Source: Candidatus Aminicenantota bacterium (lineage in GTDB: Bacteria > Acidobacteriota > Aminicenantia > Aminicenantales > UBA4085). From it: a stretch of DNA of 64,000 bases. The stretch lies in NCBI GenBank assembly GCA_003141555.1, contig PLMN01000012.1, positions 1 through 64,000 on the forward strand. Direction: 5' to 3'. Below are positions 1,061 through 10,904 of the stretch, in pieces (position 1 is the stretch's first letter; each line of letters opens with the position of its first letter). A model generated the notes under the pieces. It saw only the letters and a list, made by a program, of their open reading frames with translations. It ran no database searches and was not told the DNA's origin. The position numbers and the translations under genes were made by a program.

Positions 1061-2443
1061 TTAGATCAAATGATCTCTCTGGAATAACGTAACCTCTTCC
1101 TTGCTGGCGAGTTCGCGCATGTCTTTCGTGAAGCCGCTCCGGGAGAAAAGGCAGAATCGCTCCGTCCTTTCGCCATTGTGCCAATCGACAAGGGGCGCTT
1201 TCCGCTTCAGGTCCCCATAAACATCAATCCCGACGGGACGAGCGCTCCACTTGGCCTCGCCGAAGAGGATTTCCCGGCGTTCCTCGTTGATCGCCACCAG
1301 ATCAATCTCCTCTTTTCTATTCCACCATCGGCCGGCGGCGTCCATCGGAAAGAAGAGGTCTTCGTGCGATTGGACGATGTCGAAGGAGAGTTTCTCGTAG
1401 TTCTCCGCTACAAGGGCGGGAAAATCGGATTCAAGCCTTGGGATAAGCCGCTCGAACCGGCCTTCTTCGATCACCGTCCGATTAGGGAGGATGTGGCGGA
1501 ACCAGAACTTGATAAATTGATCCTGGATGCGATAGAGACCCTTGCGGGATTTGAGGGGCAGGCGCTCAGTGACCGGCACTTCCTTTTGGATCACCTGCAA
1601 GTCGTCGAGCGTGAATAGATAGCGGTGCAAAATCCCTTTTTCGAGGCCGGTATCGTTGACGATTTCGCCGATCTTGCTCTTGCCGAAAGCGATCGCTTTC
1701 AGAATGGCGAAATAATTCCGCGGCTCCCGCAATTCTTCCCTAAGCAGGAACTCGACCTCGCGGGCGAGGAACGCTTCTGGCGGCAGAATCTGGGAGACGA
1801 TGTTATCGATAGCGGAACAAGCCGGATCCAGCCTCTTCAAATAACTGGGGTTGCCGCCGGCCAACGCATAAAGTTCGAGGCACCTGTCGAAGGAGGCCCG
1901 GGGATAGAATTTTCTAGCGTCGGCGAAGCGGAACGGCTTAAGCTGGATCTGGCCCGTCCTCCTGCCGAAAAGGGGCGACTTTTCGGCCAGGACTTCGCTC
2001 TCCATCATGGCGATGCTTGATCCGCAGAGGATCAGGAATACAGGCGTTTTCCGGAGATATTCGTCCCATCCGGTTTGGAAGATCGAGGGCAGTCCCTTCT
2101 CGGCTTCCGTCAGGTAGGGGAATTCGTCGATGGCCAGAATTGTTCTCGTTTTAATCCGGTCCCGGCCATATTGGAAGAAAGCGCGCCAATCCGGGAATCC
2201 CGCCGTCTTTAGGAAATCATCGTTGAAGTGATCGGCCGCCAGATCGGCCAACCAGCGGCGGTTGTCGATTCCGTTGACCCGCTGGCCGAGGAAGTAGACA
2301 TGGGGCTTATTCTTCATGAAATGTTTAATAAGCTCCGTTTTCCCGACCCGTCGCTTGCCATAGATAACGACGAGGCGAGCTTCCTCCCCCTGCCAAGCCT
2401 TCTCCAGAGCCGCCAGTTCCTTTTCACGATCGATGAATTCCAT
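1061..2443 (-). CDS. ATP-binding protein, archaeal-type ATPase with C-terminal DUF234-like domain
   Basis: This 460-residue protein opens with a P-loop NTPase: Walker A GKRRVGKT at about residues 29-36 and a Walker B-like ILAIDEF near residue 103. The middle part (ALAGGNPSYLKRL, then a winged-helix-like EIVNDTGLEKGILHRYL) is typical of the archaeal-type ATPase family. The C-terminal region has the arrangement E-x-DLVA...FGEAKW, which fits the PD-(D/E)xK-like fold of the DUF234 domain. Genes of this family are scattered and mobile across bacteria and archaea; their function is unknown, although a role in defence or DNA metabolism has been suspected. The promoter region upstream (2462-2497) carries a striking set of repeated half-sites. 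The neighbour is a restriction-modification gene, so this end of the window looks like an accessory island. Confidence 0.85.
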   Translation of the reverse strand: MEFIDREKELAALEKAWQGEEARLVVIYGKRRVGKTELIKHFMKNKPHVYFLGQRVNGIDNRRWLADLAADHFNDDFLKTAGFPDWRAFFQYGRDRIKTRTILAIDEFPYLTEAEKGLPSIFQTGWDEYLRKTPVFLILCGSSIAMMESEVLAEKSPLFGRRTGQIQLKPFRFADARKFYPRASFDRCLELYALAGGNPSYLKRLDPACSAIDNIVSQILPPEAFLAREVEFLLREELREPRNYFAILKAIAFGKSKIGEIVNDTGLEKGILHRYLFTLDDLQVIQKEVPVTERLPLKSRKGLYRIQDQFIKFWFRHILPNRTVIEEGRFERLIPRLESDFPALVAENYEKLSFDIVQSHEDLFFPMDAAGRWWNRKEEIDLVAINEERREILFGEAKWSARPVGIDVYGDLKRKAPLVDWHNGERTERFCLFSRSGFTKDMRELASKEEVTLFQRDHLI

Positions 2444-2461: not shown

Positions 2462-2497
2462 AGTCTACTCACGAGTAGTCTACTATAAAGTAGACTA
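2462..2497 (-). promoter_or_regulatory. Array of three AGTCTACT half-sites upstream of the ATPase gene
   Basis: AGTCTACT occurs at 2462-2469 and 2477-2484, and its reverse complement AGTAGACT at 2489-2496. The last two extend to a perfect inverted repeat with 9-bp arms (TAGTCTACT at 2476-2484, AGTAGACTA at 2489-2497) and a 4-bp spacer. A second palindrome, CTACTC-AC-GAGTAG, spans 2465-2478. On the minus strand a -10-like TATAGT falls in the spacer of the larger palindrome. The array ends about 20 bp before the ATPase start, so a repressor or activator site is likely. Confidence 0.6.
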
Positions 2498-2568
2498 AAA
2501 ATCAAAATATCTTGCGGCGGCCAAACTGGAACCCGATTAACAAATTGACTGACTGGACTCCGGCCGCT

Positions 2569-8627: not shown

Positions 8628-8746
8628 GTCCGCGCTGGCCGCGGAGGCGGGAATTTTCGGGAGCGCTTTCAAAAGGGCGGGCGTAGATCGGCGGCCGCAG
8701 ACCTTAGGGCTCACCCTGATCAGGCCGGCAGGCCAAAATCCGGAAG

Positions 8747-8775
8747 TTCAATTCGGGGCCGAACTGGTGTAAGAT
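8747..8775 (+). promoter_or_regulatory. Possible promoter for the M50 protease gene
   Basis: TTCAAT (8747-8752) and TAAGAT (8770-8775) with a 17-bp spacer. Both boxes are only partial matches to the consensus. Transcription would begin about 11 nt before the ATG at 8793. Confidence 0.35.
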
Positions 8776-8792
8776 GCGCAAGAGAGAAAAAT

Positions 8793-9410
8793 ATGGGACT
8801 CTTGAAGCTGCTGACCCAGGATCCGCTGGCCTTCGTCCTGCTCGTCATCCCTCTTCTCTTTTCGATCATCATCCACGAGGTAGCCCACGGCTGGGTGGCC
8901 TACCGGATGGGCGATTCGACCGCCAAGGACATGGGGCGCCTGACCCTGAATCCGCTCAAGCACCTGGACCCGTTCGGGACGCTCATGCTCTTCATCGTGG
9001 GGTTCGGCTGGGCGAAGCCCGTCCCGGTCAACTTCTACAACCTTCACCCCCGCCGCAAGGGATTGATCCTGGTCTCGTCGGCCGGCATCGCGGCCAACAT
9101 CCTGCTGGCCTTCCTGTTCGAAATGCTGCTCAAGGTGATCCCCGTCAGGTACGCGGGGACCTGGGTCATCATGGTTTACTTCATGGTCCAGATCAATATC
9201 ACCTTGGCCGCCCTCAACCTGATTCCCATCCCGCCTCTTGACGGATCCAAGATCCTGTTGGGGATCTTTCCGAACCAGACCAGCAAAATTTACTCCCTCC
9301 TTGGGCAGAACGGATTCATCGTCATCCTGCTGCTTCTATTTACGGGAATCCTGAACCCGGTCATCAATTTCGTCAGGCATCTGATCGAGCTGCTGATCGG
9401 CATCCGCTGA
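8793..9410 (+). CDS. Site-2 protease family (M50) integral membrane metalloprotease
   Basis: The 205-residue polytopic membrane protein carries the zinc motif HExxH as HEVAH (residues 28-32) in the first long hydrophobic segment. The third-ligand motif [12 protein letters not shown] lies about 120 residues later, in a transmembrane helix. This is the minimal core of the short M50 group, which lacks PDZ and CBS domains. Such proteases cleave membrane-anchored substrates within the bilayer; the substrate here is unknown. No partner gene is adjacent: the next gene (rmuC) is 129 bp downstream. Confidence 0.9.
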
Positions 9411-9539
9411 TTGCCTTTCGCCGGAACGTAACTCGCCCGCGCTCTTGATTAACAGCCCCAGATGAACGATAGTAGGAGCGCACCGGGTGCGAGTCGTTTC
9501 CGCCGCTGCTCCATCCGTCCGGCCGCGGAGGTATTTTCC

Positions 9540-10904
9540 ATGAATCTCGGAGAAATATTTTCGCTTGTCGCGGGCGTCCTGGCCGCCGTCGCGATCATCC
9601 TGATGGTCCTGCTCCTCCGTCGCCGGGGGAGCGCCGACCTCCAGCCGCGCCTCGAAGCGATCGAGCGCGGGCAGGAGCGGGCGGAGCGGGAGTTCCGCGA
9701 CGAGTTCGGCCGCGGCCGCGAGGAGAGCCATTCGGAGTCAAGCGCGCTGCGGCGCGAGGTCGCGGCGGGCCTTAAGGAAGCGAACGATTCCGTTCTGAAG
9801 CAGATCACGGACCTCGTCGCCCTCGACCGCCGGCAGATGGAGGCCTTCGCCGGCGAGCTGCGGCGCCTCACGGAGTCGAACGAGGCCAAGCTCGAGGGGC
9901 TGCGGGGCACCGTCGAAAAGAAGCTCGCCGAGATTCAGGCCGACAACGGGGCCAAGCTTGAGTTGATGCGAAAGACCGTCGAGGACAAGCTCGAGCAGAC
10001 GCTCGAGCGGCGCCTGGCCGCTTCGTTCAGCCAGGTCAGCGACCAACTCGAGCAGGTCCACAAGGGACTCGGTGAGATGCAGGTCTTAGCGAGCGGGGTC
10101 GGCGACCTGAAGAAGGTCCTGACCAACATCAAGGTCCGGGGCACTTGGGGAGAAATCCAGCTCGGGAACCTCCTCGAGCAGATCCTCGTCTCCGACCAGT
10201 TCGACCGGAACGTCTCAACCAAGGTGGGTTCGGCCGACCGGGTCGAGTTTGCCATCAAACTTCCCGGCCCCGAAGGCCGGGACGGCGAGGTCGTCTGGCT
10301 CCCGATCGATGCCAAATTTCCAAAGGAGGACTACGAGCGCCTGATCGAAGCCTCGGAGCGGGCGGACGCGGCCGGGGTCGAGGAGGCGGGCCGCCAACTC
10401 GAGGTTCGTATCAAGGCCGAGGCCAAATCCATCCGCGATAAATACCTGGACCCGCCCCATACCACGGACTTCGGCCTCCTCTATCTCGCTACCGAAGGCC
10501 TCTACGCTGAGGTCCTGCGCCGGCCCGGCCTGCAGGATGCCCTTCAGCGCGAGTCCCGGGTCATTATCGCTGGCCCGACGACACTTACCGCCATCCTCAA
10601 CAGCCTCCAGATGGGCTTCCGCACATTGGCCATCCAGAAGCGGTCGAGCGAGGTCTGGACGCTGCTCGGCGCGGTCAAGACCGAGTTCGGCAAGTTCGGG
10701 GAGGTCATCGACAAAGTCCAGAAGAAGCTCGAGGAAGCGGGCAATGTCATCGAGGGCGCCCAGAAGCGGACGCGGGCGATCGAGCGCAAGCTTCGCCAGG
10801 TCCAGGAGCTGCCCGCTGCAGAGTCCGAGAAGCTCCTCGAAGGCGCCGTCGCCGAGGCGGCGGACGACGCCGCGGCCGCCGCCGAGACGGAGAAGGCGGA
10901 GTGA
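9540..10904 (+). CDS. rmuC: DNA recombination protein RmuC
   Basis: The 454-residue protein has an N-terminal membrane anchor (about residues 8-28, ending LLLRRRG). A long coiled coil covers about 35-180, then the RmuC core with the hallmark VRGTWGEIQLGNLLEQIL and the later PTTLTAILNSLQMGFRTLAIQKRS. RmuC limits sequence inversions at short inverted repeats and is predicted to contain a PD-(D/E)xK-type nuclease-like core. The start at 9540 is preferred because a GGAGG element lies upstream and the membrane anchor follows directly. The C-terminus is alanine- and glutamate-rich. It overlaps the next gene by 4 bp (GTGA), so the two are translated from one message. Confidence 0.92.
   Translation: MNLGEIFSLVAGVLAAVAIILMVLLLRRRGSADLQPRLEAIERGQERAEREFRDEFGRGREESHSESSALRREVAAGLKEANDSVLKQITDLVALDRRQMEAFAGELRRLTESNEAKLEGLRGTVEKKLAEIQADNGAKLELMRKTVEDKLEQTLERRLAASFSQVSDQLEQVHKGLGEMQVLASGVGDLKKVLTNIKVRGTWGEIQLGNLLEQILVSDQFDRNVSTKVGSADRVEFAIKLPGPEGRDGEVVWLPIDAKFPKEDYERLIEASERADAAGVEEAGRQLEVRIKAEAKSIRDKYLDPPHTTDFGLLYLATEGLYAEVLRRPGLQDALQRESRVIIAGPTTLTAILNSLQMGFRTLAIQKRSSEVWTLLGAVKTEFGKFGEVIDKVQKKLEEAGNVIEGAQKRTRAIERKLRQVQELPAAESEKLLEGAVAEAADDAAAAAETEKAE

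Follow-up and report, generated by a model that had tools for sequence, protein, structure and literature searches.

A gene for an archaeal-type ATPase lies close to the start of the window (the whole 64,000-nucleotide stretch of DNA analyzed here), and a cluster of short repeats is located directly before it. We asked what this array is for and which protein reads it: a separate regulator, the ATPase itself, or none.

Structure of the array and of the ATPase

The window contains the sequence AGTCTACT exactly three times, and all copies lie in the array, at 2462–2469 and 2477–2484 on the forward strand and at 2489–2496 on the reverse strand; 0.25 copies were expected per whole window, and at least three were obtained in 2 of 100 shuffles. 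These positions confirmed a preliminary description of two direct copies and an inverted one within 36 bp, placed over the ATPase promoter; the array indeed occupies the likely promoter, 19–54 bp before the start codon. The same description had reported two overlapping perfect palindromes, which held for 2476–2497 (9-bp arms, 4-bp loop) but not for 2462–2481, which matches at 89% over 9-bp arms and is perfect solely over CTACTC-AC-GAGTAG (2465–2478). It had also overlooked that the entire 2462–2496 block is a dyad (17-bp arms, 76%) and that a fourth half-site appears when the array is read in 5-bp units. On the gene's strand, these units form CTACT-n4-AGTAG-A-CTACT-n4-AGTAG, a 29-bp symmetric site with four half-sites, two dyads, and a single two-fold axis at 2479, upstream of an ATPase_2/DUF234 gene. 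The half-sites are spaced 9 bp inside a dyad, and the dyads are spaced 15 bp from each other. The features of the array and the gene are as follows.

2462–2497, no strand: candidate operator array, in which two dyads spaced 15 bp make up a single site of two-fold symmetry (repeat and palindrome analysis)
2465–2469, no strand: outer half-site, gene-proximal; CTACT on the forward strand, AGTAG on the gene's strand (sequence; family geometry)
2474–2478, no strand: inner half-site, gene-proximal side of the centre (sequence; geometry grid)
2479, no strand: centre of two-fold symmetry (sequence; geometry grid)
2480–2484, no strand: inner half-site, distal side of the centre (sequence; geometry grid)
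2489–2493, no strand: outer half-site, distal (sequence; geometry grid)
1061–2443, minus strand: ATPase gene (460 aa) with ATPase_2, predicted winged helix, and DUF234 (open reading frame list; Pfam; AlphaFold2 model)
1526–1723, minus strand: predicted winged-helix region, residues 241–306 (AlphaFold2 model; coordinates computed from the gene)
1601–1639, minus strand: putative recognition helix, residues 269–281, with residue 274 at 1622–1624 (model, and co-change with half-site position 2 that was not significant family-wide in a stratified test)
1241–1504, minus strand: DUF234, a PD-(D/E)XK-like nuclease domain (Pfam; conserved residues; PD-(D/E)XK assignment of PDC-S27 taken from the available part of PMC12988326)

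The ATPase protein scored above the Pfam gathering thresholds for both PF01637 (89.5 bits; cut-off 33.2) and PF03008 (73.2 bits; cut-off 22.5), and it accounts for the single ATPase_2 match above the family cut-off in the genome of the window. The AlphaFold2 model was of high confidence (mean pLDDT 95.9); from the modelled order at residues 241–306 (helices 241–252, 258–265, and 269–281; strands 285–288 and 303–306) and from the fold matches, we read this region as a winged helix. In a fold comparison of residues 1–323, the archaeal ATPases 2qen (Z 23.0) and 2fna (Z 21.3) ranked best, followed by NLR, ORC, and CED-4 chains, including the NLR RPP1 (Z 17.6) and the Orc1/Cdc6–DNA structure 2qby (Z 15.4). 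In the comparison with the NBD-HD-WHD fold of STAND NTPases, the NLR and CED-4 chains aligned at Z 13.7–17.6, mostly over residues 1 to about 323, and it is in the fold of residues 1–323 that the protein resembles Orc1/Cdc6, 2qen, 2fna, and the STAND ATPases (plant NLRs, CED-4). The origin repeats of archaeal Orc1/Cdc6 mark replication origins; unlike those repeats, the present array keeps register with bacterial and archaeal promoter elements, and the ATPase protein carries a nuclease-like domain. In the DUF234 of 78 sequences, D381 and K398 are invariant, and E350, E379, and E396 are conserved at 90% or more.

The PADLOC models PDLC04984 (E 1e-46, residues 2–324) and PDLC04985 (E 2.5e-24, residues 2–401) both hit the protein, which at the sequence level strongly matches the defence candidate PDC-S27; the PADLOC cut-offs are not shown, and neither is antiviral protection. 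PDC-S27 is presented, in the part of the source available, as a single-gene defence candidate in which an ATPase is fused to a PD-(D/E)XK domain, with 3503 instances in archaea and 4562 in bacteria (PMC12988326). The window protein is likewise a single gene that joins an ATPase to a PD-(D/E)XK domain in a family of archaea and bacteria, and the operator and the residue-base rule proposed below go beyond that description. The accessible main text contains none of the terms promoter, operator, palindrom, or autoregul (PMC12988326), and the array was likewise undescribed in the partly accessible open-licence literature searched on the family, on PDC-S27, and on palindromes and autoregulation.

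Array geometry and promoter register among homologues

We collected 283 homologous loci and kept 245, dropping those with short upstream sequences, with unread bases, or matching another row at 54 or more of the last 60 positions. The array plan was defined as 5-4-5-1-5-4-5 (half-site, spacer, half-site, centre, and so on) and scored as complementary pairs out of 10. At least 9 pairs were present in 134 of the 245 distinct upstream sequences, compared with 2.3 expected from shuffles. A general repeat test reached p ≤ 0.05 in 81 of 112 ATPase upstreams but in only 23 of 160 upstreams of other genes, the latter sampled from 383 in the same loci. With the plan itself, 74 of 110 upstreams in the defining set reached p ≤ 0.05; because the plan had been read from these same data, a new set was collected from the phyla of three other genomes, and in this held-out set 60 of 110 reached p ≤ 0.05 and 40 of 110 reached p ≤ 0.01. 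On a grid of 63 geometries, the plan gave the highest count of upstreams with at least 9 pairs (134/245), in a near tie with a 5-bp spacer (133); the 5-bp spacer led in loci above all 100 shuffles (102 vs. 90 of 245), and the plan led in the new set (49 vs. 44 of 110). This ridge between 4- and 5-bp spacers arises because the arms exceed 5 bp. Among the 87 best rows, complementarity was 0.80–0.99 at the half-site offsets, partly by selection, and 0.36–0.51 in the unselected spacers.

The plan did not reach p ≤ 0.05 in 93 of the 245 upstreams, some of which have an even-centred or other palindrome; an even centre was observed in haloarchaea (e.g., L207, L209, and L262) and in the CTAATC group (L281–L289). 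No array could be recognized by eye in L029 (61% identical), L093, and L101, whereas three dyads are present in some upstreams (G020, L045). An ATPase match was found in 18 of 99 related genomes, among which the array was evident; across the phylum, 70 of 396 genomes gave a match at E ≤ 0.001, in many cases a weak and partial one. The 80 loci from named genomes were the best 80 of 570 candidates, so that these counts, drawn from the best-scoring homologues, do not give the prevalence of the array in the distant family.

The preliminary description had suggested a family-wide mark. The geometry and the promoter register do recur, and the geometry is common to archaea and bacteria, but the letters differ: palindromes precede the start codon in most upstreams inspected, with clade-specific letters. 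The AGTCTACT form occurs mainly in relatives at 55–94% identity and once at 39% (L041), and TATACT forms appear at 40–49%. A search for the identical palindrome would therefore miss most cases. Absence from homologues, which had been named among the conditions for refutation, does not apply to most of them, although some lack the array (e.g., L029). In the genome of the window, the site is found nowhere else in the 3.79 Mb at up to three mismatches. Without a second site, the reading of the array as one member of a regulon was rejected, and so was a transposon with terminal repeats, the site being single, at one end only, with no repeat at both ends.

To place the arrays relative to promoters, the 154 best of the 245 (86 bacterial and 68 archaeal) were aligned on their centres. 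TATAAT (≤1 mismatch) fell exactly at the centre in 52 of the 86 bacterial arrays; this count is partly circular because the common half-site yields AGTATAATACT. TTGACA (≤1 mismatch) lay 17 bp upstream of the centre box, at register −26, in 9 of the 86, against a mean of 0.7 per offset; only one offset was higher (−10, inside the arrays, with 12), arising from half-site letters, and exact TTGAC peaked at the −35 place (6; mean 0.3). In the archaeal arrays, TTAAATA (≤1 mismatch) occurred at −23 in 21 of 68 (mean 0.5). Both the −35 and the TATA-box signals fall outside the half-sites. The median distance from the array to the matched gene start was 41 in bacteria versus 22 in archaea. With no mapped transcription starts and on sequence grounds alone, the array centre thus appears to be the −10 box in many bacteria and to lie just behind the TATA box in many archaea, which would meet the criterion of a site over the core promoter in both domains. 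In the window, the corresponding elements are as follows.

2477–2482, minus strand: candidate −10 box TAGACT at the array centre (read from the sequence; same register as TATAAT in 52/86 bacterial arrays)
2500–2505, minus strand: candidate −35 box TTGATT, 17 bp from the −10 box (read from the sequence; register −26 from the centre)

A strict sigma-70 scan of 2300–2700 returned nothing, and the TTGATT-17-TAGACT of the window was not listed. The register also bears on the idea that the palindromes act as leader RNA hairpins or as DNA structure, with no protein operator. In some archaea the array extends to the start codon, and in the window a 57-nt stretch folds at z −2.0, with 6 of 200 shuffles equally good; however, wherever the −10 box coincides with the centre, transcription would leave out half of the array, the distance from the array to the gene start varies, and no Rfam match was found in 1000–2900. 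We set an RNA element aside on the missing Rfam match and the hairpin score of z −2.0, and we regard this explanation as scarcely credible.

Recognition helix, neighbours, and distribution of the array

If the ATPase reads the array, its DNA-binding residues might change with the letters of the half-sites. In 157 loci (of 159 selected), residue 274 was the best partner of outer half-site position 2, with a corrected mutual information of 0.36 against 0.11 for the next column, and the equivalent inner position again paired best with residue 274 (0.24; next 0.19). When mutual information was summed over positions, the winged helix did not clearly stand out, contributing 4, 2, and 5 of the 15 top-ranking columns versus about 2 expected. 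K274 is accompanied by G at position 2 in 241 of 324 half-sites, Y274 by C in 32 of 32, and V274 by T in 24 of 24; on the tree, Y274 was gained twice separately, each time with C, and V274 once. R274, the residue of the window protein, is accompanied by mixed bases. Nearest-neighbour pairs also placed residue 274 first for position 2 of the outer and inner half-sites. On a tree built without the winged helix, residue 274 ranked first among 427 protein columns for co-change with outer position 2 (19 vs. 7.3 expected), outer position 3 (14 vs. 5.0), and inner position 2 (13 vs. 5.1); for the other seven half-site positions, other columns led. In a permutation stratified by divergence, residue 274 ranked first (outer), second (inner), and fifth (four pooled), with family-wide p values of 0.60, 0.60, and 0.99. 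The predicted rule linking residue 274 to the base is thus likely but not proven, and the self-recognition site inferred in the preliminary description gains support from the co-change on the tree but not from the stratified test.

A second residue, K249 (1697–1699 in the window), was the best partner of outer position 5: it differs in 24 of 27 pairs with differing outer position 5, compared with 3 of 40 pairs without such a difference (p = 7e-12), and its family-wise p value for this position in the stratified test was 0.021. No consistent residue-base mapping was found for it, and its role as a specificity residue remains unresolved.

Operators are often bound by a separate regulator, and a host or island regulator could bind the array in place of the ATPase; the co-change could then be indirect, and it was not significant family-wide when stratified. 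Against this, no Pfam family, among the families listed (25 of 155), occurred in more than 3 of the 117 adjacent genes of the named loci. These 117 are of 124 neighbour frames, the omitted ones being L077:2314-2799, L088:4444-4779, L094:5106-5420, L095:5639-6109, L101:3654-3962, L106:5791-6150, and L108:5477-5824. By this measure the ATPase met the criterion of a single-gene system, and an operon partner or dedicated regulator was rejected, within the limits of the families listed; the dedicated regulator proposed in the preliminary description is disfavoured on this ground and by the uniqueness of the site in the genome. Moreover, the letters of the array differ between ATPase clades and, in one genome, mostly between paralogues too, and the co-change involves the recognition helix of the ATPase itself. 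The Methanosarcinaceae genome G473 has 15 ATPase matches, and their upstreams score at least 8 of 10 pairs in 14 of 15 cases and at least 9 in 11 of 15; the letters of these arrays are mostly different, although L177 and L178 hardly differ from each other and the half-sites of L166 and L176 are identical. We consider binding by a separate regulator very improbable.

The genomic setting raised another possibility, namely that the array is a self-recognition or cleavage site of the nuclease domain, belonging to a selfish cassette with a homing site or insertion end, so that its overlap with the promoter is secondary. The window shares a block at 90.4% with its congener G001 (875–2513); the next stretch is unrelated, and homology returns at 8746–10458 (76%) in the same order. 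The ATPase gene therefore occupies the same chromosomal position in the two species, within a stretch that varies. With two other genomes, G005 and G018, little is shared beyond the gene and the array (1080–2505 and 1111–2498). The end of the shared block is as follows.

2498–2513, no strand: final 16 bp of the G001-shared block (comparison with congener G001)

A block that ends 16 bp past the array, with genes beyond it only 76% alike, would suit such a cassette, as would the invariant nuclease residues, the patchy distribution already noted among relatives and across the phylum, and homologues in 157 plasmid records. However, the site occurs once and at one end only, the shared block continues into the neighbouring gene at the other end, and the resumption of homology in order indicates one chromosomal place in both species; in addition, the −10/TATA register in two domains would be needed by an operator but not by a cleavage site. 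The cassette explanation thus appears improbable. In phage records, 8 distant protein matches to the ATPase were found.

The neighbour at that other end, at 36–1040 of the window, is a type IIG restriction-modification gene (TaqI_C) that is truncated by the contig start to its C-terminal part. It lies tail to tail with the ATPase gene, an arrangement also present in G001, where the gene encodes 999 aa.

Searches with DNA patterns alone reached an ATPase gene, intact or decayed, in 9 of the 10 genomes matched. The CTACT form (≤1 mismatch) was found in 5 of 396 genomes, with every site directly upstream of an ATPase gene (4 intact, and 1 decayed in G020), and the reversed control gave zero matches in the 396 genomes. 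Four of these five genomes had shaped the pattern or were that of the window itself, and the fifth (G020) was already known too; this search thus tells more of absence elsewhere than of new discovery. The ATACT form was found at 6 sites in 5 of 317 genomes, with 4 sites before intact ATPase genes, one of them newly found (G1122), and the reversed control gave 1 match. Behind each of the two ATACT sites of G1142, we observed only a short frame resembling the N-terminus of the family (LFVNRYTEKATL and LFINKYTKKATL), with no full ATPase copy within 10 kb, where a longer frame gave just a weak match of 17 bits. These two arrays (L366, on contig C1077) are 1.5 kb apart with similar flanks, each before its short N-terminus-like frame, and are possibly fossils of an ATPase gene.

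In viral contigs, the CTACT pattern gave a single match, a tandem repeat, and the ATACT pattern gave 9, none with an ATPase in the stretch examined by a profile that recovered its positive control. Most of these nine are likely AT-rich chance matches, and the reciprocal search is thus uninformative. A perfect ATACT array of the family type, accompanied by a partial extra dyad, occurs in a stretch common to two viral contigs (L353:2930-2970 and L354:1204-1244). It lies immediately before an apparent phage portal gene, with no ATPase, and may be chance, a phage promoter, or a decoy operator.

A proposed autoregulatory operator

Considering the array itself, its recurrent geometry, its uniqueness in the genome, its register on promoter-like elements, and the co-change of residue 274 with the half-sites, all of which we observed, we are fairly confident that the array functions as the ATPase gene's operator and is bound by the winged helix of the protein that this gene encodes. 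The ATPase most likely controls its own gene; binding, repression, and the trigger for release are inferred, and there are no binding or expression data. As we envisage it, the winged helix would bind the four 5-bp half-sites (two dyads 15 bp apart), and the base on the symmetry axis would fall at the −10 box in bacteria and, in archaea, between the TATA box and the gene start. The bound protein would block RNA polymerase and would therefore keep its own level low, until the ATPase is engaged elsewhere, released, or diluted. The 9-bp half-site and 15-bp dyad spacings, together with the upstreams that carry three dyads, suggest that dimers may stack along the DNA.

Toxin-antitoxin autoregulation and the C proteins of restriction-modification systems likewise keep a potentially harmful effector, encoded by sporadic genes, low through its own operator; those systems use two or more genes, whereas the ATPase system would use one polypeptide. 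In the available parts of the sources, the WYL-domain family (PMC9122601) and RptR (PMC12255303) bind DNA and are linked to defence-gene control. There, as far as those parts show, a separate repressor controls the defence genes, whereas here the repressor and the ATPase-nuclease would be one protein; unlike those regulators, the window ATPase would have its sole site in this genome at its own promoter.

Long dyads were also observed before the genes of DUF4143 ATPases in related genomes (28 upstreams, L315–L344; e.g., L328, L321, and L329), 11 of the 28 at p ≤ 0.05 and 5 at p ≤ 0.01, and self-marking may extend to that family.

We also offer, as a tentative and rather doubtful extension, that a single polypeptide serves as repressor, sensor, and effector, leaving the DNA when engaged by an invader, while helix and operator drift as a largely private address. 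The resting winged helix would sit on its own promoter; engagement by an invader would release it from the DNA, freeing the nuclease and raising expression of its own gene; and the helix and operator would drift together, so that many paralogues could share a cell with little cross-talk, as may be the case for the 15 of G473, of which two share half-sites.

Among the candidate antiviral systems of archaea, this family is a common one, and its control is unexplained in the partly accessible literature searched. A visible operator predicts the binding target of the protein, provides a reporter for its trigger, separates paralogues, and flags decayed copies, and the residue-base rule could be tested by swapping one residue. 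The array also offers an example of a single site plan shared by bacteria and archaea, with positions that suit two different transcription machineries. If the sensor proposal is true, the residue-274 rule would amount to a specificity code that can be read from the sequence, for a defence candidate that is among the commonest still unexplained in archaea.
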